Shown here piece after piece: positions 1 to 31,294 of a stretch of 64,000 nt of DNA. The stretch comes from Cellulophaga baltica. GTDB lineage: Bacteria; Bacteroidota; Bacteroidia; Flavobacteriales; Flavobacteriaceae. The stretch covers positions 23,823 through 87,822 of the forward strand of contig NZ_JAHKQN010000028.1 in assembly GCF_018861125.1 (NCBI RefSeq), read 5' to 3'. Each line of letters starts with the position of its first letter. Position 1 is the stretch's first letter. The notes under the pieces were generated by a model, which searched no databases, was not told the origin of the DNA, and worked only from the letters and a program-made list of their open reading frames with translations. A program made the position numbers and the translations under genes.

Positions 1-1107
1 CCATGTTACTGTTTGGTTTGTAGCATCAGTTGGGGTAATAGTAGCATTTAATTGTTGCGTTTCTCCTTCTTCTAAACTCACAGGATTAGTTGTAACTTCT
101 ACATTTGTAACTACAATAATAGCTTCTTCTACCGTACATGTAACCGTGTATTCCTGAGTAGAACTATCCTCTGCTATAACTGTATAAATAACAGGATCGG
201 TAAAGTCTTGTGCTGTACCTGAAGCAGGACTTATTGTTTCTCCAGAATGTACTATTGTTGGTGTTAATGCGGTAAGGTCTGTGCCTTCTGGAAGTTCTAT
301 AGCAATTCTAGTATCTGTTAATATCCCGTAAACATCATTGATACTAAAACTAGTTATTTCTTTTTCGGAAGATAATTCTTCTACAACCTCAAAACTTATA
401 GTTTCTATTACTTCTTGTCCATTTGAGTCTTCTAATAAGAATTCAATAGTAACTGAACCTAGTTCTGTTGCTGTAAATTTTAACTCATAAGTTCCTGGTG
501 TTATTTCAACTAACTCATCTAAAGTTTCATCAGCTCCTTCAGAAGTTGTTAACGTACCAGTGCCCTTTGTAAAAGAGTAATTTCTTTGATAAGTAACCTC
601 TTCACCTTCTGTTTCTGAACCTAATACAATTGTTATTTCTTCTGAATCTCCTAAAAGCATTTGGTTTGTACTAGCTGACGCAGTCCAAATAATAGGAATA
701 TCAGAAATCGAATAAGTTACTATTATCTGTTCTGTAAACCCGAAAGAGTCTTCTGCTGTAAAAACTATAGTATGATCTCCTACTTCCGTAGGTATATACG
801 TTATTGAAGCAGTTAATGGATCTAATGCTATTTTTTCTCCTTCAGAAATAATAGTGCCTGATTCATCTTCAAAGTAACCAGATCCACTATTAATTTTATA
901 CGAATAACTATAGCTATAGTCTTCTACCAATTCTTCAGGAGTAACTGTAATTACTGTAGTCAATACTGTATTCACATAACCTTCTGACTCATGAGTTTCT
1001 GCTAACTCAAATTCTACCTCAGTATATAAACCAACTTGTTTTGTACAAGCTAGTATTACTAGTAAGATAGAGATAAAGCTTAGTATGTATTTGGTTGGTT
1101 TTTTCAT
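1..1107 (-). CDS. Modular lipoprotein with TraQ-like N-terminal module and DUF5018/Big_2-type C-terminus (3' end outside window)
   Basis: The frame is open from the ATG at 1107 to the window edge (369 codons), so the C-terminus is missing. It begins with an SPII signal ending in LACTKQ or similar, so the mature protein is a lipoprotein. Residues up to about 247 form the module shared with the two upstream genes: two beta-rich Ig-like units resembling the TraQ/DUF3872 conjugation protein. After this comes a DUF5018-like unit (EYTVTC end, EDSSTQEY motif) and then a Big_2-like Ig unit (TTNPVSLEEGETQQLNATI). It lies 24 bp downstream of the next gene and is probably the third lipoprotein of the same operon. 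No enzymatic residues are visible; a structural or binding role on the envelope is inferred. The TraQ resemblance is by pattern only. Confidence 0.75.
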   Translation of the reverse strand, partial: MKKPTKYILSFISILLVILACTKQVGLYTEVEFELAETHESEGYVNTVLTTVITVTPEELVEDYSYSYSYKINSGSGYFEDESGTIISEGEKIALDPLTASITYIPTEVGDHTIVFTAEDSFGFTEQIIVTYSISDIPIIWTASASTNQMLLGDSEEITIVLGSETEGEEVTYQRNYSFTKGTGTLTTSEGADETLDELVEITPGTYELKFTATELGSVTIEFLLEDSNGQEVIETISFEVVEELSSEKEITSFSINDVYGILTDTRIAIELPEGTDLTALTPTIVHSGETISPASGTAQDFTDPVIYTVIAEDSSTQEYTVTCTVEEAIIVVTNVEVTTNPVSLEEGETQQLNATITPTDATNQTVTW

Positions 1108-1131
1108 TGTGGTTGGTTAGTTTGTTATAAT

Positions 1132-3798
1132 TTATTGTGGTATTCCATTGTTAATATCCATTAACAAACTTTGAGTGGATGAAGACTCACTATTTGAAAT
1201 ATTTACTGAGGAATACGAAACTGTTCCATCAGAATCATATAAATTGTCATGACTTCCTGTAATTACAACACTTCCACTTTCAGGCATTGTAAAACTTTCC
1301 TCATCGGTTAAACTAAAACTATCTATAGTATTGTAAAAATTGGAGACTATCATTACTCCATCTACATTTACAATTGCATCTCCTTTACCCATATCACCTA
1401 TAGAACGCAAAATTATTGTTACTGTTGAACCCGCGGGAGCAGTATACTCTCCTGTAGAAGAATCAAACGTTATTGGAGTTGCTACAGATATAGTTAAAGT
1501 TGTTGAGTTTGTTCCTCCATTTCCATCATTGATCGTTAATATTACGGTATAATCATCGGCTGTTGAATATGAATGGGAAGGGTTAGCTTCTGTAGAGGTT
1601 CCTCCATCACCAAAATCCCATAAATATGACAATGTATCATCATCAGGATCTGTAGATGAATCTCCATAGAATTGAGCTGTGCCTCCAGTAAATATTGAAG
1701 AAGGTCCAGTAGCTACTGCTGTTGGAGCTTGGTTTAGAGCGTTGACAGTTATACTTATTGTTGCATTTACAGAATCAGTTCCATCATCAACTGTATAGGT
1801 AATTTGGTCGTTTCCAGAATATCCATTTGTCGGAGTATAACTAATTACTGTACCAGATATTGTAGCGGTACCATTTAATGCTGATCCAATAGTAACCGTG
1901 AGATCATCTCCATCAACATCTGATATTTCATTTGTAAGATCAATAGTATTGCTACTTGAATTTTCTTCAACACTTATGCTAACGTCATTAGCTACAGGTT
2001 CATTATTTGCTAAAGCTGTTACTGTTATAGTTATTGTAGCATTTACAGAATCAGTTCCATCATCAACTGTATAAGTAATTTGGTCGTTACCAGAATATCC
2101 GCTTGTTGGAGTATAACTAATTACTGTACCTGATATTGTAGCGGTACCATTAGCTGGGTTTATAAAAGTTACAGTAAGCGTATCTCCATCAATATCTGAC
2201 ATTTCATTTGTAAGATCAATAGTATTGCTACTTGAATTTTCTTCAACACTTATGCTAACGTCATTTGCTACAGGTTCATTATTTGTTAATGGACTAACTG
2301 TTATACTTATTGTCGCATTTACAGAATCACTTCCATCATCAACTGTATAGGTAATTTGATCGTTACCCGAATACCCGCTTGTTGGTGTATAACTAATTAC
2401 TGTACCAGATATACTAGCAGTTCCATTTAATGCAGAACTAATAGTAACCGTTAGAGTATCTCCGTCTTCATCACCTATTTTATCTGTAACGTCTATTAAA
2501 TTACTTGTTGAATTTTCATCAACAGTTACATCAAAATTTTCAGCTGTAGGTTCATTTCCTGACTCTAATTCAACTGTTACTATATATTCTTGTGTAGAAC
2601 TATCTTCTGCTGTAACAATATAAGTAACTGAGCTAGAAAAATCTTGAGGAGTATTATTAGGATTTATACTTGCTCCATTATGCTCAATTGTAGGAGTTAA
2701 TGCAGAAACATCAGTTCCTGCAGGTAATGTAATGGTAAAATCATTTTCAGGGTTATCAATAGTTATTCCTTCTAATTCAAAAGAAGTAATATCATTTGAT
2801 GAACTTTCTCCAACTTCTAATTCAACTGTAACAATATATTCTTGTGTATCATCATTTTCTGCTGTAACAGTATAAGTAACTGAACTAGAAAAATCTTGAG
2901 GAGTATTATTAGGATATATACTTGCTCCATTATGCTCAATTGTAGGAATTAATGCCGAAACATCAGTTCCATAAGGTAATGTAATGGTAATTTCATTTTC
3001 AGGATTATCAATAGTTATTCCTTCCAATTCAAAAGAAGTAATTGAATTTGTATCGCTTTGCTCTAATTCTTCTACAACCTCAAAATTTATAGTTTCTATT
3101 ACTTCTTGTCCGTTTGAGTCTTCTAATAAAAATTCAATAATAACTGAACCTAGTTCTGTTGCTATAAATTCTAACTCATAAGTTCCTGGTGTTATTTCAA
3201 CTAGTTCATTTAAAGTTTCATCTGCTCCTTCAGAAGTTGTTAACGTACCAGTGCCCTCAGTAAAAGAGTAATTTCTTTGATAAGTAACCTCTTCATCTTC
3301 TGTTTCTGAACCTAATACAACTGTTATTGCTTCTGAAGCTCCTAAAAGTATTTGATCTGTACTAGCTGACGCAGTCCAAGTAACAGGAATATCAGTAACA
3401 GAATAGGTTGCTATTACTTGTTCTGTAAAGCCGAAAGAGTCTTCTGCTGTAAAAACTATAGTATGGTCCCCTATTTCGGTAGCAATATAATTAAGTGATG
3501 CCGTTAATGGGTCTAATGCTATTTTTTCTCCTTCAGAAATAATAGTACCAGATTCGTCTTCAAAATAACCTGATCCACTATTAATTTTATACGAATAGCT
3601 ATAACTATACCCATCAACTAATTCTTCAGGAGTAACTGTAATTACTGTAGTCAATGCTGTATTTACATAACCTTCTGACTCATGTGTTTCTGTTAATTCA
3701 AATTCTACCTCAGTATATAAACCAACTTGTTTTGTACAAGCTAATATTACTAGTAAGATAGAGATAAAGCTTAGTATGTATTTGGTTGGTTTTTTCAT
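1132..3798 (-). CDS. Modular lipoprotein: TraQ-like N-module, 2x DUF5018-like, 3x cadherin-like, PKD
   Basis: 888 residues. An SPII signal (lipobox LVILAC, Cys at 21) is followed by the shared TraQ-like module to about residue 247. Then come two 84-residue DUF5018-like units (motif ITSFELEGITIDNPEN; TQEYIVTVELE), three 92-residue cadherin/VCBS-like units (SYTPTSGYSGNDQITYTVDD), a PKD domain (SYLWDFGDGGTSTEANPSHSYS), and about 100 further residues of unknown type, also rich in Ser, Thr and Gly. Repeats are nearly identical to one another at the DNA level, which implies recent internal duplication. The gene lies 32 bp after its paralogue 3831-5825 and 24 bp before the next. The modules suggest an extended, surface or periplasmic stalk; ligand unknown. 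Certain as a gene, uncertain as to function. Confidence 0.85.
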   Translation of the reverse strand: MKKPTKYILSFISILLVILACTKQVGLYTEVEFELTETHESEGYVNTALTTVITVTPEELVDGYSYSYSYKINSGSGYFEDESGTIISEGEKIALDPLTASLNYIATEIGDHTIVFTAEDSFGFTEQVIATYSVTDIPVTWTASASTDQILLGASEAITVVLGSETEDEEVTYQRNYSFTEGTGTLTTSEGADETLNELVEITPGTYELEFIATELGSVIIEFLLEDSNGQEVIETINFEVVEELEQSDTNSITSFELEGITIDNPENEITITLPYGTDVSALIPTIEHNGASIYPNNTPQDFSSSVTYTVTAENDDTQEYIVTVELEVGESSSNDITSFELEGITIDNPENDFTITLPAGTDVSALTPTIEHNGASINPNNTPQDFSSSVTYIVTAEDSSTQEYIVTVELESGNEPTAENFDVTVDENSTSNLIDVTDKIGDEDGDTLTVTISSALNGTASISGTVISYTPTSGYSGNDQITYTVDDGSDSVNATISITVSPLTNNEPVANDVSISVEENSSSNTIDLTNEMSDIDGDTLTVTFINPANGTATISGTVISYTPTSGYSGNDQITYTVDDGTDSVNATITITVTALANNEPVANDVSISVEENSSSNTIDLTNEISDVDGDDLTVTIGSALNGTATISGTVISYTPTNGYSGNDQITYTVDDGTDSVNATISITVNALNQAPTAVATGPSSIFTGGTAQFYGDSSTDPDDDTLSYLWDFGDGGTSTEANPSHSYSTADDYTVILTINDGNGGTNSTTLTISVATPITFDSSTGEYTAPAGSTVTIILRSIGDMGKGDAIVNVDGVMIVSNFYNTIDSFSLTDEESFTMPESGSVVITGSHDNLYDSDGTVSYSSVNISNSESSSTQSLLMDINNGIPQ
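1740..2560 (-). repeat. Three 276-bp (92-residue) cadherin-like coding repeats
   Basis: The string ccatcatcaactgtata recurs at 1781, 2057 and 2333, giving an exact period of 276 bp. Each unit encodes a 92-residue cadherin/VCBS-like domain in the 888-residue lipoprotein. Confidence 0.85.
2564..3050 (-). repeat. Two 252-bp (84-residue) DUF5018-like coding repeats
   Basis: The string tctaattcaactgt recurs at 2564 and 2816, an exact 252-bp period. Both copies encode the ITSFELEGITIDNPEN unit with only a few changes. Confidence 0.8.
3061..3798 (-). repeat. Shared N-terminal module repeat (other copies at about 361-1107 and 5096-5825)
   Basis: About 740 bp coding for signal peptide plus TraQ-like module is nearly identical in three tandem genes. 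Similarity stops abruptly near residue 247 in each (at EVVEEL), where the unrelated C-terminal repeat modules begin. This is the pattern expected from gene duplication followed by C-terminal module exchange and gene conversion of the 5' part. Confidence 0.85.
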
Positions 3799-3830
3799 TG
3801 TGGTTATATTTTTATTAAACTTTCACCTAA

Positions 3831-5825
3831 TTAATAATCATAATAATTAGGTAAAACAGTTACAATTCTCGTTATCTCTATTGCGTTATTACCCGCTTGA
3901 TCCGTAACATTATAAGTGATTAAATATTCTCCACTAGTGTTTGTATCAACAGTATTTACGGTAATAATAGTACTAGTAATATCTCCATCTACATCATCAA
4001 TAGCGGTTGCTCCTTGGTCAGTATAACTATCTCCAGCTGTTATAGTTTTATAATTGCTACCTATTAATGTGATAACGGGTGCTGTGGTATCTGCTTCTTC
4101 TTCAACTGTTACTATTCTAATTACTTCTGTAGCATTATTTTCTGCTTCATCTGTAACATTATATGTAATTGTATATTCACCTGCTACACTTGTATCAACT
4201 GGATTTACTGTAACAATTTCACTTGTAAGATTACCATCTATATCGTCCGTAGCTGTTGCTCCTTCATCTGTATATGTATCTCCTACTGTTAATGTGATTT
4301 CTGATTCTCCTGTTAATGTTATAACTGGTGCTGTAGTGTCTAATTCTTCCTCAACTGTTACTATTCTAATTACTTCTGTAGCATTATTTTGTGCTTCATC
4401 TGTAACATTATATGTAATTGTATATTCACCTGCTACACTTGTATCAACTGGATTTACTGTAACAATTTCACTTGTAAGATTACCATCTACATCGTCGGTA
4501 GCTGTCGCACCTTCATCAATATAAACATCTCCAACTGTTACTGTTATTTCTGATTCTCCTACTAATGTTATAACGGGTGCTGTGGTGTCTGTTTCTTCTG
4601 CGACTGTTACTATTCTAATTACTTCTGTAGCATTATTTTGTGCTTGATCTTCTACATTATATGTAATTGTATATTCACCTGCTACACTAGTATCAACTGG
4701 GTTTAGTGTAACTATATCACTAGTAATATCACCATCTACATCGTCGGTAGCTGTTGCTCCTTCATCAACATAAATATCTCCAACTGTTACTATGATTTCT
4801 GATTCTCCTACTAATGTGATAACGGGTGGTGTGGTGTCTAATTCTTCTACGACAGTAACTGTTCTAATTACTTCTGTAGCATTATTTTCTGCTTGATCTT
4901 CTACATTATATGTAATTGTATATTCACCTGCTATACTCGTATCAACTGGATTTATTGTAACTATTTCACTCGTAAGATCTCCATCAATATCGTCGGTAGC
5001 TGTTGCTCCTTCATCTATGTATGTATCTCCAACTGTTACTGTGATTTCTGATTCTCCCAATAATGTGATAACGGGTGCAGTTGTATCTAATTCTTCTACA
5101 ACCTCAAAACTTATCGTTGCTATTACTTCTTGTCCGTTTGAATCTTCTAATAAGAATTCAATAGTAACTGAACCTAATTCTGTTGCTGTAAATTCTAATT
5201 CATAGGTTCCTGGTGTTATTTCAACTAATTCATTTAAAGTTTCATCAGCTCCTTCAGAAGTTGTTAACGTACTAGTGCCCTCTGTAAAAGAATAATCCCT
5301 TTGATAAGTTACCTCTTCATCTTCTGTTTCTGAACCTAGTACAACTGTTATTGCTTCTGAATCTCCAAGGAGTATTTGATCTGTACTAGCTGACGCAGTC
5401 CAAGTAACAGGAATATCAGTAACAGAATAGGTTGCTATTACTTGTTCTGTAAAGCCGAAAGAGTCTTCTGCTGTAAAGACTATCGAATGGTCTCCTACTT
5501 CCGTAGGTATATACGTTATTAATGCTGTCAATGGGTCTAATGCTATTTTTTCTCCTTCAGAAATAATAATAGTACCAGATTCGTCTTCAAAATAACCAGA
5601 TCCATTATTAATTTTATACGAATAGCTATAACTATACCCATCAACTAATTCTTCAGGAGTAACTGTAATTACTGTAGTCAATGCTGTATTTACATAACCT
5701 TCAGACTCATGAGTTTCTGCTAACTCAAATTCTACCTCAGTATATAAACCAACTTGTTTTGTACACGCAATTATTACTAGTAAGATAGAGATAAAGCTTA
5801 ATATGTATTTGGTAGGTTTTTTCAT
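3831..5825 (-). CDS. Modular lipoprotein: TraQ-like N-module followed by five DUF5011 repeats
   Basis: 664 residues. SPII signal with lipobox LVIIAC (Cys21). Residues to about 247 are the TraQ-like module shared with the two downstream genes. From about 250 to the end there are five units of 83 residues of DUF5011/HYR type, each starting DTTAPVITL and containing DEGATATDD, AGEYTITYNV and NNATEVIR. The last repeat is the most diverged and ends NYYDY. The start is placed at the ATG directly before KKPTKYILSF, identical in all three paralogues. It follows the TraO-like gene by 26 bp, so TraN-like, TraO-like and the lipoproteins look like one transcript. Ig-like repeats of this type usually serve as spacers in surface proteins; binding target unknown. 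Confidence 0.85.
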   Translation of the reverse strand: MKKPTKYILSFISILLVIIACTKQVGLYTEVEFELAETHESEGYVNTALTTVITVTPEELVDGYSYSYSYKINNGSGYFEDESGTIIISEGEKIALDPLTALITYIPTEVGDHSIVFTAEDSFGFTEQVIATYSVTDIPVTWTASASTDQILLGDSEAITVVLGSETEDEEVTYQRDYSFTEGTSTLTTSEGADETLNELVEITPGTYELEFTATELGSVTIEFLLEDSNGQEVIATISFEVVEELDTTAPVITLLGESEITVTVGDTYIDEGATATDDIDGDLTSEIVTINPVDTSIAGEYTITYNVEDQAENNATEVIRTVTVVEELDTTPPVITLVGESEIIVTVGDIYVDEGATATDDVDGDITSDIVTLNPVDTSVAGEYTITYNVEDQAQNNATEVIRIVTVAEETDTTAPVITLVGESEITVTVGDVYIDEGATATDDVDGNLTSEIVTVNPVDTSVAGEYTITYNVTDEAQNNATEVIRIVTVEEELDTTAPVITLTGESEITLTVGDTYTDEGATATDDIDGNLTSEIVTVNPVDTSVAGEYTITYNVTDEAENNATEVIRIVTVEEEADTTAPVITLIGSNYKTITAGDSYTDQGATAIDDVDGDITSTIITVNTVDTNTSGEYLITYNVTDQAGNNAIEITRIVTVLPNYYDY
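3843..5090 (-). repeat. Five 249-bp (83-residue) DUF5011 coding repeats
   Basis: The string ataacgggtg (with small variants) occurs at 4072, 4321, 4570, 4819 and 5068, an exact period of 249 bp. Each period encodes one DUF5011 domain. Confidence 0.9.
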
Positions 5826-5851
5826 TTGGGATGGTTATTAAATAATTTATT

Positions 5852-6385
5852 TTAGAAAAAATAATACCGTATTCCTAAACCAGAATAATTGGTAAATTGA
5901 CCAAAATCACTATTCATATGATAAAATTCTGTAGTTTTTGCTACAACAGATAATGTATTACTAATAATTATGTCTATTTCAAGTCCTGCCTGAGCACCAT
6001 AAATAAATTTACTATCACCATCTAAAAAAACAATATTAGAAAATTCATTTTGTCCGCCATTTACTAATTCATAACCACCTAATAAACCTATACCCATACT
6101 TATTGCTTTATATCTTCTTGCTGTTGCATAAAGTGTAGTGTAATATGAATATGATAAAGTATAACTAGAATACGGAATAGAAACTTCTCCTGATTCATAA
6201 TTGGATAATGATACATCTAATGCAATCTGAGTAAATGAAAATTCATCTATATTATTATTAAACGTTATTTCACCTCCGTAGCCATCTCCGAAAATGCCTC
6301 CTGTTGCCATAACAGATTTAGGAAATGCTTGAGCGCTTAAAAAATTAGTAACTAAAAAGCCAAATAGTATTAAAAAATATTTCAT
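5852..6385 (-). CDS. TraO-like outer-membrane protein
   Basis: 177 residues with a cleavable signal peptide (cut probably after FLSAQA) and no lipobox. The mature part alternates polar and aromatic residues as in a small outer-membrane beta-barrel and ends in aromatic residues (GLGIRYYFF). The pattern of glycines and the motifs LLGGYELVNGG, FIYGAQAGLEID and GQFTNYSGLG match my memory of the Bacteroidota conjugative transposon protein TraO. It starts 4 bp after the TraN-like gene ends, so the two are surely cotranscribed. In conjugative elements TraN and TraO are envelope components; here there is no conjugation machinery, so it is probably repurposed. An unrelated PorT-type barrel is the alternative. 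Confidence 0.65.
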   Translation of the reverse strand: MKYFLILFGFLVTNFLSAQAFPKSVMATGGIFGDGYGGEITFNNNIDEFSFTQIALDVSLSNYESGEVSIPYSSYTLSYSYYTTLYATARRYKAISMGIGLLGGYELVNGGQNEFSNIVFLDGDSKFIYGAQAGLEIDIIISNTLSVVAKTTEFYHMNSDFGQFTNYSGLGIRYYFF

Positions 6386-6389
6386 TAGG

Positions 6390-7391
6390 TTAGTTTAAAT
6401 ATTTATAGTCTAAAGGTAATATTACCATTCTGTTTCCGTCTTTTTCATCTAAAACTATTTCTAAAGTTTCATCATTTGAAACCGGAAATTTTTTAAAAAC
6501 ATATACTATTTCATTATTACTTTCAGGATCAATCAATGTCTGTAAGTTAAATGTATAAACAGGTTCTAAAATTTTAGGATTATTTGTCTTATCCTTAATG
6601 AAAAAACTCAACCCATTAACCGCATATTCTTTTTTAGATGTGTTTTCTAGGTTTAACATAAAATATACTTCTTCACGGTCTACCAATATATTGTTTAAGC
6701 GAATAATAATTTTTTTATTTTGACGAAAACTTCTTTTGTATATTGTTTTTTGTAGATAATTATTTTCACAAAATATTCGATAATACTGCTCAGGGTCAGA
6801 TTCATACAAATCTCCTTCTTGATTACCATAGCCAGATTCTTCAACAGTGTATAATTCTGAATCCACAATTCCGTCTTGATCAAAATTGTTTTGACTTTTA
6901 ATTACATCTGAATTTAGTGAAGGAGCAGAATTAATTGGTTTTTCAGGAAATTCAATAGTTGGTTTTGTAGTTTTAGGTAGGTCTTGAGCAAGCGTTACTT
7001 CTTGTTCTACCATTTTAGAGTCAGAATTTTGAGATGCATTATTTACGTTCACTTGACCAACAGCTTGATCTGGAGTAAATAAATAAGTAAATGTATCGAG
7101 TTTTTCAGAATAGTTTAAGAAAATTGAAAAAACCTCTCCTTGCACAGTTATTACTGTAAGGTTACTAGGAGAACCTTTTCTTGCTTGTAAAGTAGCTAGA
7201 GTATTTCCTATTTCATAATCAAACTTATAATTAATCCCAGGTGGAATTACAGTTTCTATTGCTGAGGGAAAAAATAAAGTAATAGTAGTATTCTGATTTG
7301 CTTTAATTGTTAAAGGTTCAGCATTATTTTGTGCAAATAAAGGAGCTGAAAGAATAAAATATAGTATTGTAATAAGATAACTTTTATTCAT
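6390..7391 (-). CDS. TraN-like protein (DUF4138 family), first gene of the TraN/TraO/lipoprotein operon
   Basis: 333 residues. Signal peptide to about residue 20 (LSAPLFAQ). The N-terminal part has the features of conjugative transposon TraN/DUF4138: ITLFFPSAIETV, an alternating beta region, and SNLTVITVQGEVFSIFL. A low-complexity polar linker (about 120-200) leads to a second beta domain containing YYRIFCENN, LNNILVDREEVYFMLNLENTS, LSFFIKDK and NRMVILPLDY. A clear paralogue lies at 40133-41152. In conjugation TraN is a periplasmic/outer-membrane component. There are no other conjugation genes in the window, and the gene heads an operon of lipoproteins next to the T6SS, so a role in an envelope complex is inferred. 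Confidence 0.7.
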   Translation of the reverse strand: MNKSYLITILYFILSAPLFAQNNAEPLTIKANQNTTITLFFPSAIETVIPPGINYKFDYEIGNTLATLQARKGSPSNLTVITVQGEVFSIFLNYSEKLDTFTYLFTPDQAVGQVNVNNASQNSDSKMVEQEVTLAQDLPKTTKPTIEFPEKPINSAPSLNSDVIKSQNNFDQDGIVDSELYTVEESGYGNQEGDLYESDPEQYYRIFCENNYLQKTIYKRSFRQNKKIIIRLNNILVDREEVYFMLNLENTSKKEYAVNGLSFFIKDKTNNPKILEPVYTFNLQTLIDPESNNEIVYVFKKFPVSNDETLEIVLDEKDGNRMVILPLDYKYLN

Positions 7392-10449: not shown

Positions 10450-10839
10450 TTACTCTCCCCAACTATTTTCAAAAACCATATCACCAATTGTAATTGTACT
10501 TGCAGATATTACAATTGTTTTTTGCATAGGAACATCATCAATAGCATCAAATTCTTCTTCAAGACTTACACAGAAAGCTTCGGTAAAAGATACTTCTTGT
10601 AAGCGTGATAAAGCATCACGTTTATAAAATAAAATGGCTCCGTCTTTGGTCTGTTCTGGTTCCATCATCCAATGGAAAAGATCTGATTTTCCTTGAGATT
10701 CTATTGTTATCATTATTTGACCACCTCTTGGTTTACCTGAAGGCTTCCCTGTATGATCCATTGGTTGTTCAAAGTTGTAGTTACAGTGCAATACGTTATA
10801 CTCTTGACCGTCAACAATTAATTTTGCTAAAAAAGACAT
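10450..10839 (-). CDS. tssD: Second Hcp (TssD), effector-associated
   Basis: 129 residues from the ATG at 10839 (MSFLAKLIVDG); an upstream ATG at 10881 would add 14 non-homologous residues, so the internal start is preferred. Hcp forms the hexameric tube expelled by the T6SS. Motifs YNVLHCNYNFEQPMD..GKPSGKPRGGQI match the other hcp (12956-13342), which has FNILHCSYDLNQEVD..GRPSSVTRGGRI. The acidic C-terminal insertion (EEEFDAIDDV) differs. It is separated from tssC by a terminator and heads the effector cassette 8802-10403, so it is probably a dedicated carrier rather than the main tube subunit. Confidence 0.85.
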   Translation of the reverse strand: MSFLAKLIVDGQEYNVLHCNYNFEQPMDHTGKPSGKPRGGQIMITIESQGKSDLFHWMMEPEQTKDGAILFYKRDALSRLQEVSFTEAFCVSLEEEFDAIDDVPMQKTIVISASTITIGDMVFENSWGE

Positions 10840-10942
10840 AGGTTGTGTTATTATTGTAAGTTTCGAAGTGTTAAAATACACCCAATTGTTTAATCAACAA
10901 AAAAAAGTCGATAAAACACCTTAAATTATTTATTGTCAAAAA

Positions 10943-10975
10943 AAAACCTCTAAAGCATTAAACAATAGAGGTTTT
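10943..10975 (-). terminator. Intrinsic terminator after tssC
   Basis: Perfect 10-bp stem aaaacctcta/tagaggtttt with a 13-base loop. The long A-run at the left side gives a U-tract for minus-strand transcription. It ends the tssB-tssC transcript and separates it from the second hcp. Confidence 0.8.
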
Positions 10976-10992
10976 ACTAATAAAAAAAATAT

Positions 10993-12351
10993 TTATTGTT
11001 GTTCATAATCAGCTGCCCACTCAGGACCTTCATCTCCTTTTTGACCATCCATTTTAATAAGGAAGTTTTTAGCAGGGAAATAAGGTTTTAAACGTACATC
11101 TAATAATATACGGTCTAGTTGATTAGGATCTTGCTCAAATTTTTTGATTTCGAAATTCTCTATCAATTTATCAGGACCTGTAATACCATCAAGAAATTTA
11201 ACTATCTGCTTATGAATTTCATTTCTAGTTTTAGCATTGAAATTTTCAAAAGCTCTACGGTTTAAAAAGTCCATTAATACCTTAGTGACGTAATCAAAAA
11301 CACGTACTACAGAATAAGTCTGCAATCCTAAATTATCACCATTAAATAATGTTTTAGCAGAGAATGCCATTACCTTACCATACTCATTAACCATTGGTAC
11401 AAGACCTAAGTTTTCGAGGTTAGCTATTTCACCTTTCTTTAGATCAAAAGCAACACCATCTACTTCACTTAATCCACCATGTTTTTTACCTGCAGCAACT
11501 TGCGACATTAATGTTTTGTATATCTTACCAGCAAATGCACCTGAAGGAGCTACGTATAAGTCATCTTCTTCACCTACTTCTTCTACCTTGCCTCTACCAA
11601 CTAACCAATTACATGTCATAACTGTATTAGATAAAAACATATCACCACTGGCTAAATTTGCACTTTCAAACATTTCCATAACATCATCTGGCTCATCTAA
11701 ATGAGCAAAGTCAGTTACTAAAGTTACTTTGTTGTCATGGGCTAGTTTTGCCCATTTGTCAACTACAGATTTTGAACCAAGGTAACCTGGTAATACCATT
11801 AATGAGTAGTTATCTCTTAAATCTAATCTATCATATTTAGAAACTAATTCTTCTCTAATATGATCAAAAAAACGTGTGTTATCTAAATCAGATAACTGCT
11901 CTAATTCTGCATTTACAATTGATATGTTTTTTAAAGAAGCTGATTCTGTATTTTTGTAAAATAAAGCAACGGATCTATATGAAGATTCTAATTCTTCCGA
12001 TTCTTCTAAAGCCTGCTTAATGTTTTTGTTTAAAAGCGCTTGCGATTGTTTTGATTTGTCATCTGCCGATTGAACTTGCTCAAGAATATCATCACCTGAC
12101 TTTAAAGTCTCAGACCATAATTCTAGTATTTTTTGTAAAGATTGGCGTTCTGATTTTTTAAGATTTTCAGTCAAAAACATTTTTCTTCTCGCTTTACGAT
12201 CAGGGTTTAAGTTTTGAACATCGTCAATTGCCGATTCTAGTAAATCAAAGCCACCATATTTTGCTAGCGTATCTGACTTTTCTTTAATTTGTTGTATAAA
12301 TGGTTTGTCACTTAATTGTGACTCTTGTTTGTTCTGCGAAGTGTTTGCCAT
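10993..12351 (-). CDS. tssC: T6SS contractile sheath large subunit TssC (VipB)
   Basis: 452 residues, close to the usual TssC length. TssC pairs with TssB to build the contractile sheath around the Hcp tube in the cytoplasm. The N-terminal part carries PDRKARRKMFLTE and a helical region; the core has MVLPGYLGSK, YVAPSGAFAGKIYK and a C-terminal ILLDVRLKPYFPAKNFLIKM, typical of the Bacteroidota TssC/DUF5458 family. It lies 18 bp after tssB, as expected for the conserved tssBC pair, and is followed by an intrinsic terminator. Confidence 0.9.
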   Translation of the reverse strand: MANTSQNKQESQLSDKPFIQQIKEKSDTLAKYGGFDLLESAIDDVQNLNPDRKARRKMFLTENLKKSERQSLQKILELWSETLKSGDDILEQVQSADDKSKQSQALLNKNIKQALEESEELESSYRSVALFYKNTESASLKNISIVNAELEQLSDLDNTRFFDHIREELVSKYDRLDLRDNYSLMVLPGYLGSKSVVDKWAKLAHDNKVTLVTDFAHLDEPDDVMEMFESANLASGDMFLSNTVMTCNWLVGRGKVEEVGEEDDLYVAPSGAFAGKIYKTLMSQVAAGKKHGGLSEVDGVAFDLKKGEIANLENLGLVPMVNEYGKVMAFSAKTLFNGDNLGLQTYSVVRVFDYVTKVLMDFLNRRAFENFNAKTRNEIHKQIVKFLDGITGPDKLIENFEIKKFEQDPNQLDRILLDVRLKPYFPAKNFLIKMDGQKGDEGPEWAADYEQQ

Positions 12352-12369
12352 AATTATTGTGAAGTGAGA

Positions 12370-12819
12370 TTACTTAGTTGTTTTTATTTCATTTATAAGT
12401 GCGTCAATTGTATCTATCAGAGCTCCTTTAGCTTCAGGATCTTGAAGAGCAGATTTTAATATTTTGTTTGTCTTTAACTGCTTTATGATTTTTTTGTATT
12501 GATCACTTTCAATCTCTAATTCTTTTAAAAATACACTATTGTTTGTGATTCCTTTTTTACCAAAATCACCTAAGTTGTTAAACTTTACGGTTTCGTTGAT
12601 AGTTCCACCGTTTTTATCTTCAAAAGGAATTTTTAATTCTGGTCTATAGTGTTCAAAAATATCTTCAACAGTTTTTAAACCCTCTACAACCTCTGGCTTT
12701 ATTGGTGTATTTGGAGTTAATTTTCCTGCAATTAAAGTTCTGTTTTGTGGAATTTCATTTAAAGCTTCACTTGCATCACCTTTGACATCATTAGCGCCAA
12801 TTCCAAAATTACTAGCCAT
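12370..12819 (-). CDS. tssB: T6SS contractile sheath small subunit TssB (VipA)
   Basis: 149 residues. The N-terminal half resembles TssB with NRTLIAGKLTPNTPIKPEVV, followed by VEDIFEHYRPELKIPFED and a C-terminal helical region. Directly upstream of tssC (18 bp), the universal sheath pair. Slightly shorter than the proteobacterial ~165 residues, normal for Bacteroidota. Confidence 0.88.
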   Translation of the reverse strand: MASNFGIGANDVKGDASEALNEIPQNRTLIAGKLTPNTPIKPEVVEGLKTVEDIFEHYRPELKIPFEDKNGGTINETVKFNNLGDFGKKGITNNSVFLKELEIESDQYKKIIKQLKTNKILKSALQDPEAKGALIDTIDALINEIKTTK

Positions 12820-12895
12820 ATTTTATGTTTTTTAAAGTTTGTTAAATTTAATCAAATTTTATTATTAACAAATAGTTATTGTAAGAATAAACGCA

Positions 12896-12925
12896 AAAAG
12901 GAGGCATTTAAGTATGCCTCCTTTT
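12896..12925 (-). terminator. Intrinsic terminator after the first hcp
   Basis: Perfect 12-bp stem aaaaggaggcat/atgcctcctttt with loop ttaagt, 31 bp past the hcp stop codon. It should let hcp be made as an abundant short transcript apart from tssBC. Confidence 0.85.
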
Positions 12926-12955
12926 AAATTTATTCCAAAAAATGTGTGAATTTAA

Positions 12956-13342
12956 TTACACCCACTCATTAATATGTTCACCACCACCGCTAGATAATTC
13001 TTTTGCTGAAATTGTAAAAGATTCAGTTAGTGGGTTTTGACCAGAAGATTCAAAATTTTCTCTGTACTTAATTAAGTAACCTTCTTTAAAATTAACTTCT
13101 TTTAAAGTAGCGTCATTATCTCTTTTTACAAAAGTGATAGTTCCGTCTTTTCTTTCAAAATTGTTTGTCATCCACTCAAAAAAACCAGTTTCTCCGTTAG
13201 ACTCAACTGTTAGGCTAATACGACCACCTCTTGTTACAGAAGAAGGTCTTCCTGTTGGATCAACTTCTTGATTTAAATCGTAAGAACAATGTAAAATGTT
13301 GAACTCTTTTCCTGCTACTTTTAATTTTGCTTTGAAAGCCAT
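12956..13342 (-). CDS. tssD: T6SS inner-tube protein Hcp (TssD)
   Basis: 128 residues, the usual size for Bacteroidota TssD. Begins MAFKAKLKVAGKEFNILHCSYD, a hallmark start, and contains RGGRISLTVESNGETGFFEWM. Hexameric rings of this protein stack into the tube propelled by the sheath. It stands alone between a 163-bp upstream gap and its own terminator, consistent with high-level monocistronic expression. Its position between the PKD membrane gene and tssB suggests it is the main structural Hcp, while 10450-10839 serves an effector. Confidence 0.92.
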   Translation of the reverse strand: MAFKAKLKVAGKEFNILHCSYDLNQEVDPTGRPSSVTRGGRISLTVESNGETGFFEWMTNNFERKDGTITFVKRDNDATLKEVNFKEGYLIKYRENFESSGQNPLTESFTISAKELSSGGGEHINEWV

Positions 13343-13498
13343 AATAATTTGTTTTTGTTGGCAAATACTGCCGATTTATATTTATATAACGTCACTAAAG
13401 GACACTGTAAACATAAATATTATTATTACTTGTAAGAAATTTTTTCGACGAAACGCACTACAAAATTCTAATTTAGAGCTTGTTACCTTAATATATAT

Positions 13499-13537
13499 AA
13501 AGGGCTTAAAATGTTTTAGAAAACAAGCCTTTTTTTA
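13499..13537 (-). terminator. Terminator overlapping the 3' end of the tssP-like gene
   Basis: Arms aaagggctt and aagcctttt(t) pair with one mismatch; the loop holds the last codons of the gene. For minus-strand transcription the hairpin ends in a poor U-tract, so its strength is uncertain. Confidence 0.4.
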
Positions 13538-14528
13538 TCTTCATATCAATAGTCATACTAACTATACAACCTGTTTTGTTATTCTTAACAAGCTTAATAT
13601 TATTAACCTCAATTTTTTTGTCTCTAATAGCATTAAAAAGTTGGTTTATAGTGTGTCTTTCTCCGCTATTATTGAATACAGGTATACTACTGTAGCAAAA
13701 ATACTCTCTAATAGCTCTATCATCTATACTTCTATTTGAATAGCCAACTAATTTTTGTTTAATATCATCAGAAGAAACTACTATTTTTTTAATTTCTGGT
13801 TTTTTATCTTCTTCAGGTACTGGATCTGGATCCGGTAAAGCATCAGGAATACTATTGTCTAAAACTTGTTCTATTGGATCGTAAATCGGAGTTGCTCTTA
13901 CAGGTCTTCTTGTGCTTTCTCGTTTTTCAAGCACTGTAATTCTTTGTTTAGCTTCGTGCCTTCTATCACCATTAACAACTAATAAGATTGTTTTTTCTCC
14001 AGGAGATGTGAACGTGTATTTTTCTTCTTGTTTAATTCCATCTATACTTAATGTTTCACCAAAACTCCATTGCCAAGTTTTTGCAAAATCAGAGTCGTTT
14101 GAAAATACAACTTCATCTCCTACCCTAACGTTTCTTGGTAAAATTATATTCGGGATTAATTCAGGAGAGATTAATATTTTTTTCTCGCTAATAACCACTT
14201 CTTTTTCAACTTCACATTGTCCATTTACCTGTAAAGAAATTTTATAAGTTCCGGGTTTTTGAAATTGATGCACCACATTTGATTGATATTTTGTTTCAGA
14301 TTTATCTCCAAAATTCCATTTCCACTCTACACCTGAACCGTCTATGCTATTAAATTCAATAAGATCTTCAGTTGTAAATGAATTTGATATTATTTTGAAA
14401 TCTGCATTTGTACAATCTACTTTAGAATTAATTTTAAAAGAAATTAATATTAAACCAACGCAAAGTAATACTAAAAAAGTAAGAAATACGTTTCGGTCAA
14501 AGTGGGTTTTTAGATTTTTACTTTTCAT
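13506..14528 (-). CDS. tssP: PKD-domain inner-membrane protein, probable T6SSiii component TssP
   Basis: 340 residues. Short cytoplasmic N-terminus, one membrane helix at about 14-31 (FLTFLVLLCVGLILISF), then a periplasmic part. PKD-like unit 1 (about 38-115; VEWKWNFGDKSE, PGTYKISLQVNG), PKD-like unit 2 (about 130-200; WQWSFGE, PGEKTILLVVNGD), a proline/acidic linker and a C-terminal domain (about 255-340). T6SSiii lacks the classical TssJLM and instead uses TssN, TssO, TssP, TssQ and TssR; TssP is, as I recall, the PKD-containing one. It faces the plus-strand tss operon head to head (61-bp gap). Assignment to TssP rests on architecture and context. Confidence 0.7.
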   Translation of the reverse strand: MKSKNLKTHFDRNVFLTFLVLLCVGLILISFKINSKVDCTNADFKIISNSFTTEDLIEFNSIDGSGVEWKWNFGDKSETKYQSNVVHQFQKPGTYKISLQVNGQCEVEKEVVISEKKILISPELIPNIILPRNVRVGDEVVFSNDSDFAKTWQWSFGETLSIDGIKQEEKYTFTSPGEKTILLVVNGDRRHEAKQRITVLEKRESTRRPVRATPIYDPIEQVLDNSIPDALPDPDPVPEEDKKPEIKKIVVSSDDIKQKLVGYSNRSIDDRAIREYFCYSSIPVFNNSGERHTINQLFNAIRDKKIEVNNIKLVKNNKTGCIVSMTIDMKIKKGLFSKTF

Positions 14529-14589: not shown

Positions 14590-15213
14590 ATGAAACTAAA
14601 ACTGCTCTTTTTAATACTTATTGTGCAACTTACTAGTTGTGGTAAAAATACCTATAATAGTGTAGACCAAAGTTACTACAAAAAACAAATTGCAGAAGCT
14701 CATAAACCAAAAACAAAAGAAAAAGTTGTTGATGAACAACCAAAAAAAGTAGCCACAACTAAATATTTAACTTATGAAGAAAAAGAAAGCTTTGCTAAAG
14801 CCTTGAATATCCCTGTTGAAGATTTAGAAAACGAGAAATTGTATGGCACAATAAAAGATTGGTTTGGAACGCCTTATTTATGGGGAGGCACTACAAAAAG
14901 AGGTGTTGATTGCTCTGCTTTTGTGCAACATGTATACAATGTAGTTTACAATAAAGAACTACCAAGAACGTCGCAACAACAATTTGATGCCAATCTTGAC
15001 GTTTCATTTAAAAACCAAAATGGTTTAAAAAACGGAGATCTTATTTTTTTTAGATTACGTCATAAAGAGAAAGTAATTTCTCACGTTGGTATATATTTAC
15101 AAAACGGAATGTTTTTAGGGTCTAACTCTCCTAGAGGTGTTGAAATAGCAAATTTAAATGATGCTTATTGGCAAGATAAATATGTTTCATCTGCTAGAGC
15201 TTTGTTAAAATAA
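14590..15213 (+). CDS. NlpC/P60 (C40) cell-wall peptidase lipoprotein at the head of the T6SS operon
   Basis: 207 residues. SPII signal with lipobox VQLTSC (Cys17). Residues about 90-207 form an NlpC/P60 domain: GTPYLWGGTTKRGVDCSAF gives catalytic Cys108, and ISHVGIYL gives His165. These enzymes cut gamma-D-Glu-diamino-acid bonds in peptidoglycan stems. It is 4 bp upstream of tssG and no immunity gene follows, so it is more likely a housekeeping enzyme that opens the wall for apparatus assembly than an effector; the lipid anchor also argues for a resident envelope protein. The gene family is secure, the T6SS role is inferred. Confidence 0.85.
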   Translation: MKLKLLFLILIVQLTSCGKNTYNSVDQSYYKKQIAEAHKPKTKEKVVDEQPKKVATTKYLTYEEKESFAKALNIPVEDLENEKLYGTIKDWFGTPYLWGGTTKRGVDCSAFVQHVYNVVYNKELPRTSQQQFDANLDVSFKNQNGLKNGDLIFFRLRHKEKVISHVGIYLQNGMFLGSNSPRGVEIANLNDAYWQDKYVSSARALLK

Positions 15214-15217
15214 ATTT

Positions 15218-16129
15218 ATGGAAAATTCTGAAACTACAATTCAAGAAATCAAAGATCATTTAAAAGATCTGAAATTTGATATTAAAGCAGAAACATTTGC
15301 ATCTGGTGTTAATAAATTCGCTAATGTTACTTATAGTTATACTGATTATTTTAAAAGAAGATACAGTTCAGACGTTTCTGGTGTAACAGAAGATGATTAT
15401 AAAGAAAAAATAATAGTAGAACTTAGTAGAAGAGGTTTTTATAATATTTTTCCTGAGCGTTTCTTTCATAAAACAACTGGTAGTACCTCATTTGTTAATG
15501 AAATGGTAAGTGCTTATAAAAACAGAAAATCAGAACAAGATTACGTGCAATCTTTTTTCAAACCATTAGAAGAAGAATTTTTTCTTCATAGAGTTGAAGT
15601 AGAAACGGAAGAAGATTGTATTTTTGAGTCATTAGGAAACGAAGAATTACTATATTTTTTGTCAGATTTATGGAATATTGATAAAGAAATTCCGTTAGTC
15701 ATGTCAGGAAAAATATTAAAATCTATGCCTTTTATGCATAAGATTGCAGGAAATTTACCGTTAATAAAAGAAGTGATAGAAACCATAATTGAAGAAAAAT
15801 TAATAATTACTAAATCATACACTAGTATACCAACAATAGATATGCATAGTCAACCATTGCAATTAGGTGTTAATTTTGCCACAGCAACAAGTGGTGAAAC
15901 CTATTTACCTAAATATACTTTTACTATTGATAACATTAAAAAGCCTGAAAATATTCATGATTATTTACCACAAGGAAAAATTGTTGCGGCAGTTCAATAT
16001 TTTTTAGATCACACGATGCCTTTTGAAAGTGATTTTGAAATTGCTTTTACTTTGCCAAAGAAAAAACAAAATTTTACACTAGGTGATGCTGTTTTTACAG
16101 GCAGACTTGGTATATCTTCTACAATATAA
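15218..16129 (+). CDS. tssG: T6SS baseplate protein TssG
   Basis: 303 residues, near the usual TssG size. TssG joins TssE, TssF and TssK to form the cytoplasmic baseplate. Sequence conservation in this family is low; visible hints are the N-terminal FASGVNKFANVTYSYTDYFKRR, the central FFHKTTGSTSFVNEM and a C-terminal FTLGDAVFTGRLGISS. Called mainly from position: tssG-tssN-tssK-tssO-tssH-tssE-tssF is a typical Bacteroidota T6SSiii order, with 4-9 bp gaps. Confidence 0.75.
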   Translation: MENSETTIQEIKDHLKDLKFDIKAETFASGVNKFANVTYSYTDYFKRRYSSDVSGVTEDDYKEKIIVELSRRGFYNIFPERFFHKTTGSTSFVNEMVSAYKNRKSEQDYVQSFFKPLEEEFFLHRVEVETEEDCIFESLGNEELLYFLSDLWNIDKEIPLVMSGKILKSMPFMHKIAGNLPLIKEVIETIIEEKLIITKSYTSIPTIDMHSQPLQLGVNFATATSGETYLPKYTFTIDNIKKPENIHDYLPQGKIVAAVQYFLDHTMPFESDFEIAFTLPKKKQNFTLGDAVFTGRLGISSTI

Positions 16130-16134
16130 TTTTC

Positions 16135-17001
16135 ATGATACAACGTTATTTAAAAACATTAATCAGTTTTGAAGCATTAATGCCATTTATGTTCATTGTG
16201 GTATTCACAGTAATGGTGCTTACTTTTTTCTCAGCAAAAACACCTGGTTTTAAAAAGCATAGAAAAAAGTTTTACATTTATTTATTGGCTGGTATTTTAG
16301 TAATGGGAATTTTTACTTGTATTGTTTACAATTTAAAACAAACATCTACCCTATTGCGTTATTTTTCTATGCTTACTTTTTCGTTTATTTTAGGAATGTT
16401 ACATGTATATTTCGTACGCTATTTCTTTGATAAATTTGAGTTAGAAAATAAATTTAAAGAACTTTTGGTGGCAATAATCACATCATTAGCTTTGGTTGTA
16501 CCAATAATTATGATAGCTGCTTTTTTTGAAGATTTAGAGTTTTTAGGCTATTATTTTTTAATTACTGCAACTTTCAGTATTCCAACAGCATTTTACGCAT
16601 TATTTAATTACTCAATTAGTATTCCGGTAAAATTATATTCTAAATGGTATTATCCTTTGGGGAACAAATATGAAGCTCCTAAACATTATGAGTTAAATAA
16701 TATGATTGTTTTAAACTTTATGTTTTACAAAAACACAAAAGAAACTCATTTAACGAGTTTTAAAGCAAAAGCACCAAAAGATATGGATTTTGGCAGGTTG
16801 TTTTTCTTTTTTATCAATGACTATAACAGTAAAAAAACAACTACAAAAATAGAACTTATGGAAGATTCTGGAGATCCGCATGGTTGGTATTTCCAAACGA
16901 AACCACAATGGTTTTCAGCATCTAAACATATCAACTCAACATTAACAGTAGAACAAAACAACCTAAACGACGGTGACACAGTAGTTTGCCAACGTATATA
17001 A
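16135..17001 (+). CDS. tssN: T6SSiii membrane protein TssN
   Basis: 288 residues. Five hydrophobic helices in the first 165 residues (e.g. FMFIVVFTVMVLTFF, YLLAGILVMGIFTCIVY, LVAIITSLALVVPIIMIAAF), followed by a soluble domain of about 110 residues that is probably cytoplasmic (DMDFGRLFFFFINDY, PHGWYFQTKPQW). TssN is one of the T6SSiii-specific proteins that replace the TssL/TssM membrane core. Its place between tssG and tssK with gaps of 5 and 9 bp supports the name. Confidence 0.82.
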   Translation: MIQRYLKTLISFEALMPFMFIVVFTVMVLTFFSAKTPGFKKHRKKFYIYLLAGILVMGIFTCIVYNLKQTSTLLRYFSMLTFSFILGMLHVYFVRYFFDKFELENKFKELLVAIITSLALVVPIIMIAAFFEDLEFLGYYFLITATFSIPTAFYALFNYSISIPVKLYSKWYYPLGNKYEAPKHYELNNMIVLNFMFYKNTKETHLTSFKAKAPKDMDFGRLFFFFINDYNSKKTTTKIELMEDSGDPHGWYFQTKPQWFSASKHINSTLTVEQNNLNDGDTVVCQRI

Positions 17002-17010
17002 TAAAGTATT

Positions 17011-18153
17011 ATGATAGAGGACATCAAAAAATTTAAAACCAATTGGATCGATGGAATGAAAATCTCGAAAGAGCATTTTCAAAACCTGCAAGACTTTGCA
17101 GAGCATAGTGTAAGAGATTTAACTAGTATTCAAATCGGTAAAAATGGTTACGGTTTATTAGCGTCACACTTAAGTGATCACAACGAATATACAGTAACTA
17201 TTGATGCGCATAAAAGCTTAAAAATTTCTATTAAAAAACTACGCGGTATTACACCAAATGGTACACGAGTAGAGATAACGAACCAAACACCAGCTGTTAA
17301 AGAAGATGTTGTGGTTGAAGAGTTTGCTGATAATAATTTGGAAGAAGGTTTTGTTTTATTAAATGTAGATCATGTTGAAAATGTTGCCTTTGGTGAGCAA
17401 GACCCTAAAGAAATGCCTCCTAGGTATCCTTTTACAACAAATAAATACTTTTTCTCTTTTGTAAATGTTAATGAATTTGAAAAATCAGGTATAGCTGGTA
17501 ACCAACTTCCTATTGCAAAAATTGTAAGAGAGAATAATGGATTAGTAGCAGCTTCAGATTATATTGCACCGTCGACTACTTTAGGAACTAGTGAAGCGTT
17601 AATTGATTTTTACAATGTCGCAGAGTCTTTTCTTAAAATGGCTGAACGTAGCTCTATTTTAATTGTTCAAAAAATAAACACAAAGCAAAGCGATAATCCT
17701 ATTGCCGATGCGATGTTCACTGTGGTAGATAAGTTGTATGTGTATTTGTCACAACAAATTACTTATGTGAAATGGGAAGAATATGACATGGCTCCTAAAA
17801 AACTTCTTGAAATTATAGTTAGTTTTTCAAGAATATTCAAAAGTGCTGTTGATGTGGCATCTCCTGAAAATAAAGAGCAGTTATTCAACTATTTTGGTGA
17901 GTGGACTGATCTTAAAGGTGGTGATTATGAAAAAATATTCACGAACATTATCAATATAGATTATAAGCATAATGATATTAATCAGAATTTAATCATCATT
18001 AATTCATTTATGAGCGTGATAGAGCGTTTGTTTACGATTCTTACACAAGTAGATTACATAGGTAAACGTCGCGATATGGGAATTTTTGTTAACGAGAATA
18101 TAGTTCAAGATAAATCAGGAAAATCAGGTGGAACTTCATTTCTAGCCGAATAA
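17011..18153 (+). CDS. tssK: T6SS baseplate-membrane connector TssK
   Basis: 380 residues. TssK links the baseplate to the membrane complex. The N-terminal FKTNWIDGMKISKEHFQNLQDF matches the 'W..GM.l...HFQ' start of the family; the central beta region and C-terminal helical bundle follow. Shorter than the proteobacterial ~445 residues, as known for Bacteroidota homologues. Lies between tssN and tssO in the same operon. Confidence 0.87.
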   Translation: MIEDIKKFKTNWIDGMKISKEHFQNLQDFAEHSVRDLTSIQIGKNGYGLLASHLSDHNEYTVTIDAHKSLKISIKKLRGITPNGTRVEITNQTPAVKEDVVVEEFADNNLEEGFVLLNVDHVENVAFGEQDPKEMPPRYPFTTNKYFFSFVNVNEFEKSGIAGNQLPIAKIVRENNGLVAASDYIAPSTTLGTSEALIDFYNVAESFLKMAERSSILIVQKINTKQSDNPIADAMFTVVDKLYVYLSQQITYVKWEEYDMAPKKLLEIIVSFSRIFKSAVDVASPENKEQLFNYFGEWTDLKGGDYEKIFTNIINIDYKHNDINQNLIIINSFMSVIERLFTILTQVDYIGKRRDMGIFVNENIVQDKSGKSGGTSFLAE

Positions 18154-18162
18154 AATATAATT

Positions 18163-18672: not shown

Positions 18673-18677
18673 TAAGT

Positions 18678-21134: not shown

Positions 21135-21143
21135 AAATAACCT

Positions 21144-21575: not shown

Positions 21576-21590
21576 ACACACACTCAAAGC

Positions 21591-23453: not shown

Positions 23454-23500
23454 TAGCTATATAAAATTTTACGTAATTCATCGAATTACAGCTGTATTTT

Positions 23501-23531
23501 TTGTCAACCTAAATCATTGTGTTTACTTTAA
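23501..23531 (+). promoter_or_regulatory. Possible Bacteroidota-type promoter for tssI
   Basis: A ttg at 23501-23503 (within a T-run) and tactttaa at 23524-23531 are separated by exactly 20 bp, a partial match to TTG-N20-TAnnTTTG. An inverted repeat gtaattc-atc-gaattac lies just upstream (about 23472-23488). It could give the spike/effector genes separate control. Confidence 0.4.
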
Positions 23532-23550
23532 CACAATAAATACTACAACC

Positions 23551-25383: not shown

Positions 25384-25394
25384 AATAGAATAGT

Positions 25395-29306: not shown

Positions 29307-29314
29307 TTTATAGA

Positions 29315-29344
29315 CCCCGCTAGCGCTCTTTTGCAACAAGTGCC
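29315..29344. repeat. REP-like element, diverged copy
   Basis: ccccgctagcgctc..ttgcaacaagtgcc: same left and right borders as the REP-like palindromes at 32226, 33189, 34212 and 35512, with a different stem. It marks the left edge of the first GH19 effector cassette. Confidence 0.6.
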
Positions 29345-31284: not shown

Positions 31285-31294
31285 ATATACTAAA

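Follow-up and report, generated by a model that had tools for sequence, protein, structure and literature searches.

A set of three gene kinds that are homologous to parts of the Bacteroidota conjugation machine was found next to a type VI secretion system (T6SS) in Cellulophaga, and the T6SS is its conserved partner. The set consists of a traN-like gene, a traO-like gene and several genes for long lipoproteins, and is called here the module. The parts and their association with the T6SS are well supported. The kinship of its parts with those of the conjugation machine is seen at the sequence level. In our best explanation, for which we see roughly one chance in two, the module would be a conjugation-derived outer-membrane platform, an accessory of one T6SSiii lineage that carries exchangeable contact lipoproteins.

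Layout of the locus

The window, the whole stretch of 64,000 nucleotides analysed here, corresponds to contig C4:23823-87822 of a 3.92-Mb, 99.5% complete Cellulophaga genome. Its closest named relatives at the locus were an uncultured Cellulophaga (TraN 70% identity) and Cellulophaga baltica DSM 24729. The module comprises the following features:

6390..7391, minus strand: traN-like gene, 333 aa, with signal peptide, VirB9-type N-domain, disordered linker and Ig-like C-domain (Pfam, model)
5852..6385, minus strand: traO-like gene, 177 aa, predicted 8-strand outer-membrane barrel (Pfam, model)
3831..5825, minus strand: lipoprotein gene, 664 aa, with TraQ-type base and five Bact_surface_Ig-like repeats (ORF list, Pfam)
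1132..3798, minus strand: lipoprotein gene, 888 aa, with TraQ-type base, Big_9/cadherin and PKD repeats, and a tip of family B
1..1107, minus strand: N-terminal part of a lipoprotein gene that continues left of the window (945 aa in full, holding a run of N), with TraQ-type base, DUF5018 and Big_2 repeats, and a tip of family A (Pfam, tip comparison)
C4:12953-22101, left of the window: three further lipoprotein genes, 718, 1615 and 695 aa

The initial annotation had described a TraN-like and a TraO-like gene ahead of three lipoprotein genes. Pfam kinship, coordinates and gene order bore this out, except that the lipoprotein genes number six. They form an array in one direction (664, 888, 945, 718, 1615 and 695 aa, C4:29647-12953), with two genes wholly and one partly inside the window. 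At the end of the array, C4:12825-12914 encodes a 30-residue relic of the start of a seventh lipoprotein, which is a sign of turnover. Further left lie genes that we take, from their sequences, to be recG, an M1-type peptidase gene, two patatin-like genes and a PorP/SprF-like gene.

The locus sits on a chromosome-type contig. ORF lists showed no tra genes left of the array as far as the contig end, 23.8 kb away. The annotation's view that no other transfer genes accompany the locus thus held for the flanks to the contig end, and the complete conjugative element directly to the left that would have spoken against it was absent. TraG ATPase, TraJ, TraK, TraM and relaxase genes were likewise not found beside the window locus or related loci, by ORF lists and in-house profiles of the flanks. 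A promoter and terminator scan gave 32 promoter-like sites, compared with 37.7 in shuffled sequences, and 0 terminators.

TraN and TraO

The 333-aa protein matched Pfam DUF4138/TraN (E 5e-15, 55.9 bits, cut-off 31.1), and stayed below the cut-off of the NCBIfam equivalog TIGR03780 (65.2 vs 164.1 bits). By fold comparison, the model of its N-domain matched VirB9-family ring proteins of type IV systems and had the N-domain fold of outer-membrane core complex proteins. The C-domain model matched many unrelated Ig-like appendage domains, and no function was read from these matches. TraN was aligned with 11 relatives; alignments of the module genes showed intact reading frames and many invariant positions.

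The 177-aa protein matched TraO PF10626 (E 2.5e-16, 60.4 bits, cut-off 25). Its model was weak (pLDDT 58), with OmpA/OprF/NspA/OmpX-type barrels among the best fold matches, all at E 0.0015 or worse and accompanied by photosystem II barrels. From this model, TraO looks like an 8-strand outer-membrane barrel. A sequence search of the PDB found relatives of neither TraN nor TraO.

Modular lipoproteins

TraQ_transposon PF12988 was matched in all six lipoproteins (29.5-42.6 bits, cut-off 27), with Ig/PKD/cadherin-type repeats after it. In the PDB, three conjugative-transposon lipoproteins of solved structure were matched by a profile of the lipoprotein base (2l3b, E 2.7e-5; 2l7q, 0.0032; 4lba, 0.017). 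Both results confirm the TraQ-like N-module proposed earlier. Across loci, one traN-traO pair stood beside one to six lipoprotein genes, and the 26 full-length proteins ranged from 664 to 1994 aa.

The bases of the window paralogues were 59-94% identical, their last 150 residues only 16-31%. In genome G396, two lipoprotein genes matched at 97.5% identity for 1531 bp, beginning upstream of the start, with no match thereafter; two in genome G001 were 98.8% identical over 1182 bp. In a tree of the lipoprotein base, the copies formed single clades in four of the six multi-copy genomes and two groups each in the two Cellulophaga. Tips were compared for 26 of the 29 lipoproteins, leaving out three fragments. 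They fell into families of 10, 8 and 3 members, mixed between species and within the window locus, plus five singletons (two masked by N, two Cys-rich). In the window locus, three of the six lipoproteins carried tip B, one tip A, one tip C and one a singleton. Ligand-binding appendages would be expected to combine a uniform anchor with exchanged tips.

Comparisons with the PDB gave partial viral fusion glycoprotein matches for tip B (E 0.004, 43 residues) and a best E of 0.5 for tip A; both were treated as chance. A relationship between tip A and the TraQ-type base was not convincing (E 0.014, probability 3%), and profile comparison gave no match between tip B and that base.

The Bacteroidetes lipoprotein export signal, as described in the parts of PMC5080379 used here, consists of K-(D/E)2, or of net negative charge in the residues that follow the lipid cysteine. 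This signal was absent: the net charge of positions +2 to +6 was negative in 0 of 29 lipoproteins (18 neutral, 11 at +1). As controls, 14/14 transfer-operon lipoproteins and 16/16 SusD-like proteins of the window genome were net negative. Either the lipoproteins face the periplasm or TraN and TraO give them a route of their own. Going by the sequence, they could face the periplasm. If extended, stalks with 1500-2000 residues in Ig-type domains would exceed the width of the periplasm, which favours exposure. The suggestion of an envelope complex reused to display repeat proteins was therefore upheld in part: the shared base with variable stalks stood, and surface display was weakened by the missing standard signal.

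The T6SS of the window

The T6SS cluster and the second TraN-like gene were laid out as follows:

10450-10881, minus strand: Hcp/TssD (T6SSiii first half, 10450..14528)
10993-12351, minus strand: TssC (first half)
12370-12819, minus strand: TssB, assigned by position, no Pfam match
12956-13342, minus strand: second Hcp/TssD (first half)
13506-14528, minus strand: TssP-like PKD protein (first half)
14590-15213, plus strand: NlpC/P60 lipoprotein (T6SSiii second half, 14590..25859)
15218-16129, plus strand: TssG-like protein, assigned by position, no Pfam match
within 14590..25859, plus strand: TssN, TssK, TssO, ClpV-type AAA, TssE (gp25), TssF (weak match), VgrG and PAAR
40133..41152, minus strand: TraN2, a second, divergent TraN-like gene, alone on the far side of the T6SS

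The cluster was assigned to T6SSiii by its TssN, TssO, TssC, TssD, gp25-type TssE, VgrG, PAAR and ClpV-type ATPase. Downstream of VgrG/PAAR (25862-38729), cargo genes were interleaved with small lipoproteins; a muramidase domain was found at 25862-28825 and a weak chitinase-type match at 35507-37321. These are likely cell-wall-acting T6SS cargo, and the small lipoproteins among them are probably immunity genes.

TraN2 matched DUF4138 (6.5e-11) and, weakly, TraK_N (F-plasmid VirB9-like, 0.0017). It was 30% identical to the first TraN of the window and likewise stayed below the TIGR03780 cut-off (45.2 vs 164.1 bits). Counterparts were present in 9 of the 11 genomes with the module and not found in the two of genus g81. 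In seven genomes TraN2 shared the tssN contig, 12-34 kb from tssN. In the window it lies between what we presume to be leu genes (41468-46233) and the T6SS effector region, a position which suggests that TraN2, too, is used by the T6SS.

TssR, a lipoprotein of the Bacteroides fragilis T6SSiii complex (PMC10781749, cited in part), was not found with PF17643 in any of the 11 module genomes, the window's included. This profile was positive in 4 of 44 T6SS genomes and silent in 14 control genomes. Systems of type T6SSiii without an identifiable TssR are already on record, at 31% in the same source, and the missing protein may perhaps be a divergent TssR. An NlpC/P60 lipoprotein, of peptidoglycan endopeptidase type, adjoined the tss genes in 35/39 TssR-less genomes, vs 0/4 TssR-bearing genomes (Fisher p 6e-4; the TssR-less genome G382 stands outside the 39), and may stand in for TssR in Flavobacteriaceae.

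Linkage of the module and the T6SS

The surveys for TraO and tssN each covered 397 genomes of the family with the same handles, taken as one sample. Pfam TraO was positive in 29 genomes. Eleven of these had the TraO type of the window (at least 52% identity, its own genome counted), and the other 18 were at 25-39%. TssN was above the cut-off in 44 genomes, among them all 11. T6SSiii, scored by tssN, thus accompanied the window TraO type in 11/11 genomes, compared with 33/386 of the others (Fisher 9e-12). Counted by genus, the figures were 7/7 and 30/230 (Fisher 1.4e-6). The Fisher values ignore shared ancestry, and the tssN tree below is to be read beside them. An adjacency probability of 1e-18 was set aside because it assumes random, independent placement. 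Two genomes of the same genus, G203 and G018, had neither tssN nor the window TraO type. The co-occurrence with tss genes that the initial annotation proposed to survey was found, and the T6SS proved to be a conserved partner beyond a neighbour.

T6SS genes were less than 10 kb from traN in 9 of the 11 module genomes. A second collection held 14 loci, all from Flavobacteriaceae, and 12 had T6SS genes within 10 kb upstream (in locus L189, Hcp only). Beyond traO, five of the 14 contigs run on for no more than about 1.2 kb. Six of the 14 coincided with loci of the 11 genomes, which gave 19 distinct loci, 16 with T6SS genes within 10 kb. There were three exceptions: no T6SS gene was in view in G011 (the same as L198) or in L191, and the T6SS of G396 lay about 180 kb away. 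The common order was TraN2, effectors, VgrG, TssF-E-ClpV-O-K-N-G-NlpC, divergent TssP-Hcp-TssB-TssC-Hcp, cargo, and traN-traO-lipoproteins. In Pricia, traN followed tssC with no sizeable gene between.

INDEPENDENCE. A tssN tree was built from 36 systems, 32 of the 44 genomes and four loci of the second collection. All 15 module-bearing systems formed one clade (SH-aLRT 99), and the module-less G094 stood next to it. One gain followed by retention would thus explain most of the association, and the genomes are not independent events. Because 26 of the 44 T6SS genomes lacked Pfam TraO entirely, a T6SSiii can in general do without the module. In the TraO tree, two other T6SS-linked lineages fell elsewhere. 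G218 had traO and a lipoprotein gene after tssO; the 6-kb contig of G224 held a 472-aa protein (TraO by Pfam, TraN-like by in-house profile), a lipoprotein and an extended TssD. The starred branches of the tree, read with a long-branch caveat, require the T6SS label to have changed three times or more, and the two further associations look independent.

The T6SS might have arrived on a conjugative element of which the module is the leftover, preserved by chance or put to some unrelated use. That the module began in this way is quite possible: GA2 elements of Bacteroidales hold traO and traN near a T6SS (PMC4714493, cited in part). A leftover should decay, however. In every one of the 19 loci, over the flanks retrieved, the three gene kinds of the module were present without any further tra gene; their frames are intact, many positions are invariant and the lipoproteins have multiplied. 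We regard a leftover as improbable.

Alternatively, TraN, TraO and the lipoproteins, together with TraN2, could be integral to the membrane complex of the T6SS as its outer-membrane component, with the tube firing through them. The VirB9-type ring fold of TraN, the lack of a detected TssR in the 11 module genomes and the lipoproteins without export signal are in line with this, as are traN right after tssC in Pricia, traO after tssO in G218 and TraN2 near the T6SS in seven genomes. The authors of PMC10781749, in the part cited here, considered it possible that other genes were co-opted to the T6SSiii complex. However, 22 of the 44 T6SS genomes had neither TssR nor TraO, and the mutual exclusion of the two was not significant (p 0.13), so neither looks essential. 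The NlpC/P60 lipoprotein fits TssR-less systems better, and one to six variable lipoproteins per traN-traO pair are unlike a fixed structural part. On the first three of these points, replacement of TssR by the module was rejected as the main reading. A structural role is doubtful, although somewhat less so than a leftover.

A wider reading, a type IV/type VI hybrid, is equally doubtful as a whole. The T6SSiii of Cellulophaga, Zobellia and Maribacter would dock on a type IV-derived ring of one or two TraN/VirB9 proteins and the TraO barrel, and this ring would supply the missing outer-membrane part of the membrane complex. Interchangeable recognition lipoproteins would surround the firing port, comparable to phage tail fibres. 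TraN and TraO would export or hold them in place of the general export signal, which would explain its loss.

Conjugation genes and other TraO loci

Away from the locus, on C2 and C33, the window genome carries two CTn-type transfer operons in which TraN is not followed by TraO, and the window TraO is the only TraO of the genome. Both points would fit a module that serves resident conjugative elements in trans. Against this, four of the 11 genomes with the module gave no hit for the conjugation ATPase TIGR03783, and G203 has two such ATPases with neither the window TraO type nor tssN (G018 has none of the three). The window TraN also shares no more than 26% identity with a TraN from an element in the same genome. 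We give service in trans very little credence. The nearest TIGR03783 hits in the window genome were on other contigs.

The remaining TraO loci were viewed over 20 kb: 14 belonged to transfer operons, two adjoined a coupling protein (G019 and one of three in G177), and the rest stood alone (two in G138, two in G177, and G143 and G186). In the 14 transfer operons, all from Flavobacteriaceae, the gene after traO encoded 1014 or 1118 aa in 10, 893 aa in two, 582 aa in one and 142 aa in one; Pfam TraQ was tested on two of these lipoproteins. Long TraQ-type lipoproteins are therefore not peculiar to the window locus.

The two traO-lipoprotein pairs of G138 lie on the chromosome beside ExbB/TonB-type and Mur-ligase genes (L062 12276-20000, overlapping L214); the second lipoprotein, of about 2420 aa, consists largely of TraQ-type units by in-house profile. 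In L201 7890-11472 (G019) and L204 9231-12425 (G177), TraO and a small TraQ-type lipoprotein adjoin a VirD4-type coupling protein, with no TraN or TraG in view. These two loci are perhaps mobilisable elements bringing their own surface module.

Pairs of TraO and lipoprotein apart from T6SS and transfer genes, as in G138 and twice in G177, would also be expected of a general envelope or adhesion system, for biofilms or algal surfaces, that is merely beside the T6SS. The adhesin-like repeats of the lipoproteins and the hosts of the second-collection loci, which we take to be marine Flavobacteriaceae, count in the same direction. Such a system leaves unexplained that 0 of the 397 genomes had the window TraO type without tssN, and we consider it quite unlikely.

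A possible role in contact

Contact remains the most likely function, at about even odds; a structural role in the T6SS and a leftover rank behind it. TraN, a VirB9-family ring subunit, would sit in the periplasm under the TraO barrel, and the two would hold each lipoprotein by its TraQ-type base or pass that base on. The stalks would reach target cells and the tips bind ligands, so that the T6SS could fire into cells kept in contact. During conjugation, these parts would help to secure the mating partner; here the DNA-transfer engine would be gone and the contact part would serve the T6SS. This reading is backed by the precedent of TasL of Vibrio fischeri, a large repeat lipoprotein in a T6SS region that mediates contact for T6SS killing (PMC9040878, cited in part). 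Several observations stand against it: some pairs of TraO and lipoprotein occur outside both T6SS loci and transfer operons, the module-bearing systems share ancestry, G011, L191 and G396 are exceptions to the linkage, the export signal is missing, and 26 of 44 T6SS genomes are without TraO.

Conjugation and type VI killing, both the work of contact-dependent machines, are linked by the module through shared outer-membrane and lipoprotein parts. In a marine, non-pathogenic lineage, the module makes testable what completes the outer-membrane side of a T6SSiii in which no TssR is detected, and by what means a T6SS locates its proper target and keeps hold of it. Gene copies with a near-identical base and differing tips offer a natural set for matching tip to prey.

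Comparison with known systems

Among the papers listed by searches of open-licence PMC full text, judged by titles and abstract openings, we found no account of TraN, TraO or TraQ as a T6SS component. The papers listed likewise gave no description of an engine-less TraN-TraO-TraQ set kept beside a T6SS lineage with multiplying lipoproteins.

Compared with the VirB9/TrwF/CagX ring proteins, the locus is without a gene for a VirB10-type TraM partner, and its TraN has no PDB relative by sequence. With TssNQOPR of B. fragilis, as described in the cited part of PMC10781749, the window shares TssN, TssO and the TssP-like PKD protein. It differs in having no detected TssR, in the added TraN, TraO and lipoproteins, and in the NlpC/P60 lipoprotein beside the tss genes.

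Two T6SS architectures of Bacteroidales are carried on conjugative elements, and the tra genes adjacent to GA2 include traO and traN (PMC4714493, in the part cited). Both GA2 and the window locus thus have traO and traN near a T6SSiii. GA2 has a larger tra set on a mobile element, whereas the locus has three gene kinds and several lipoproteins.

TasL resembles the module lipoproteins in being a large repeat lipoprotein of a T6SS region with a proposed part in holding target cells, a resemblance of function only. Its repeats are FN3-like, and the cited part of PMC9040878 mentions no TraN/TraO platform.

The closest likeness in gene content is to TraN-TraO-TraQ of the Bacteroidota conjugative transposons, with three homologous gene kinds in the same order, and many transfer operons of Flavobacteriaceae likewise encode a long TraQ-type lipoprotein. 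In contrast to these transposons, the locus is without TraG, J, K and M, and its TraN falls below the NCBIfam conjugative cut-off. It carries one to six lipoproteins that have differing tips and no acidic export signal, and it is linked to a T6SS.
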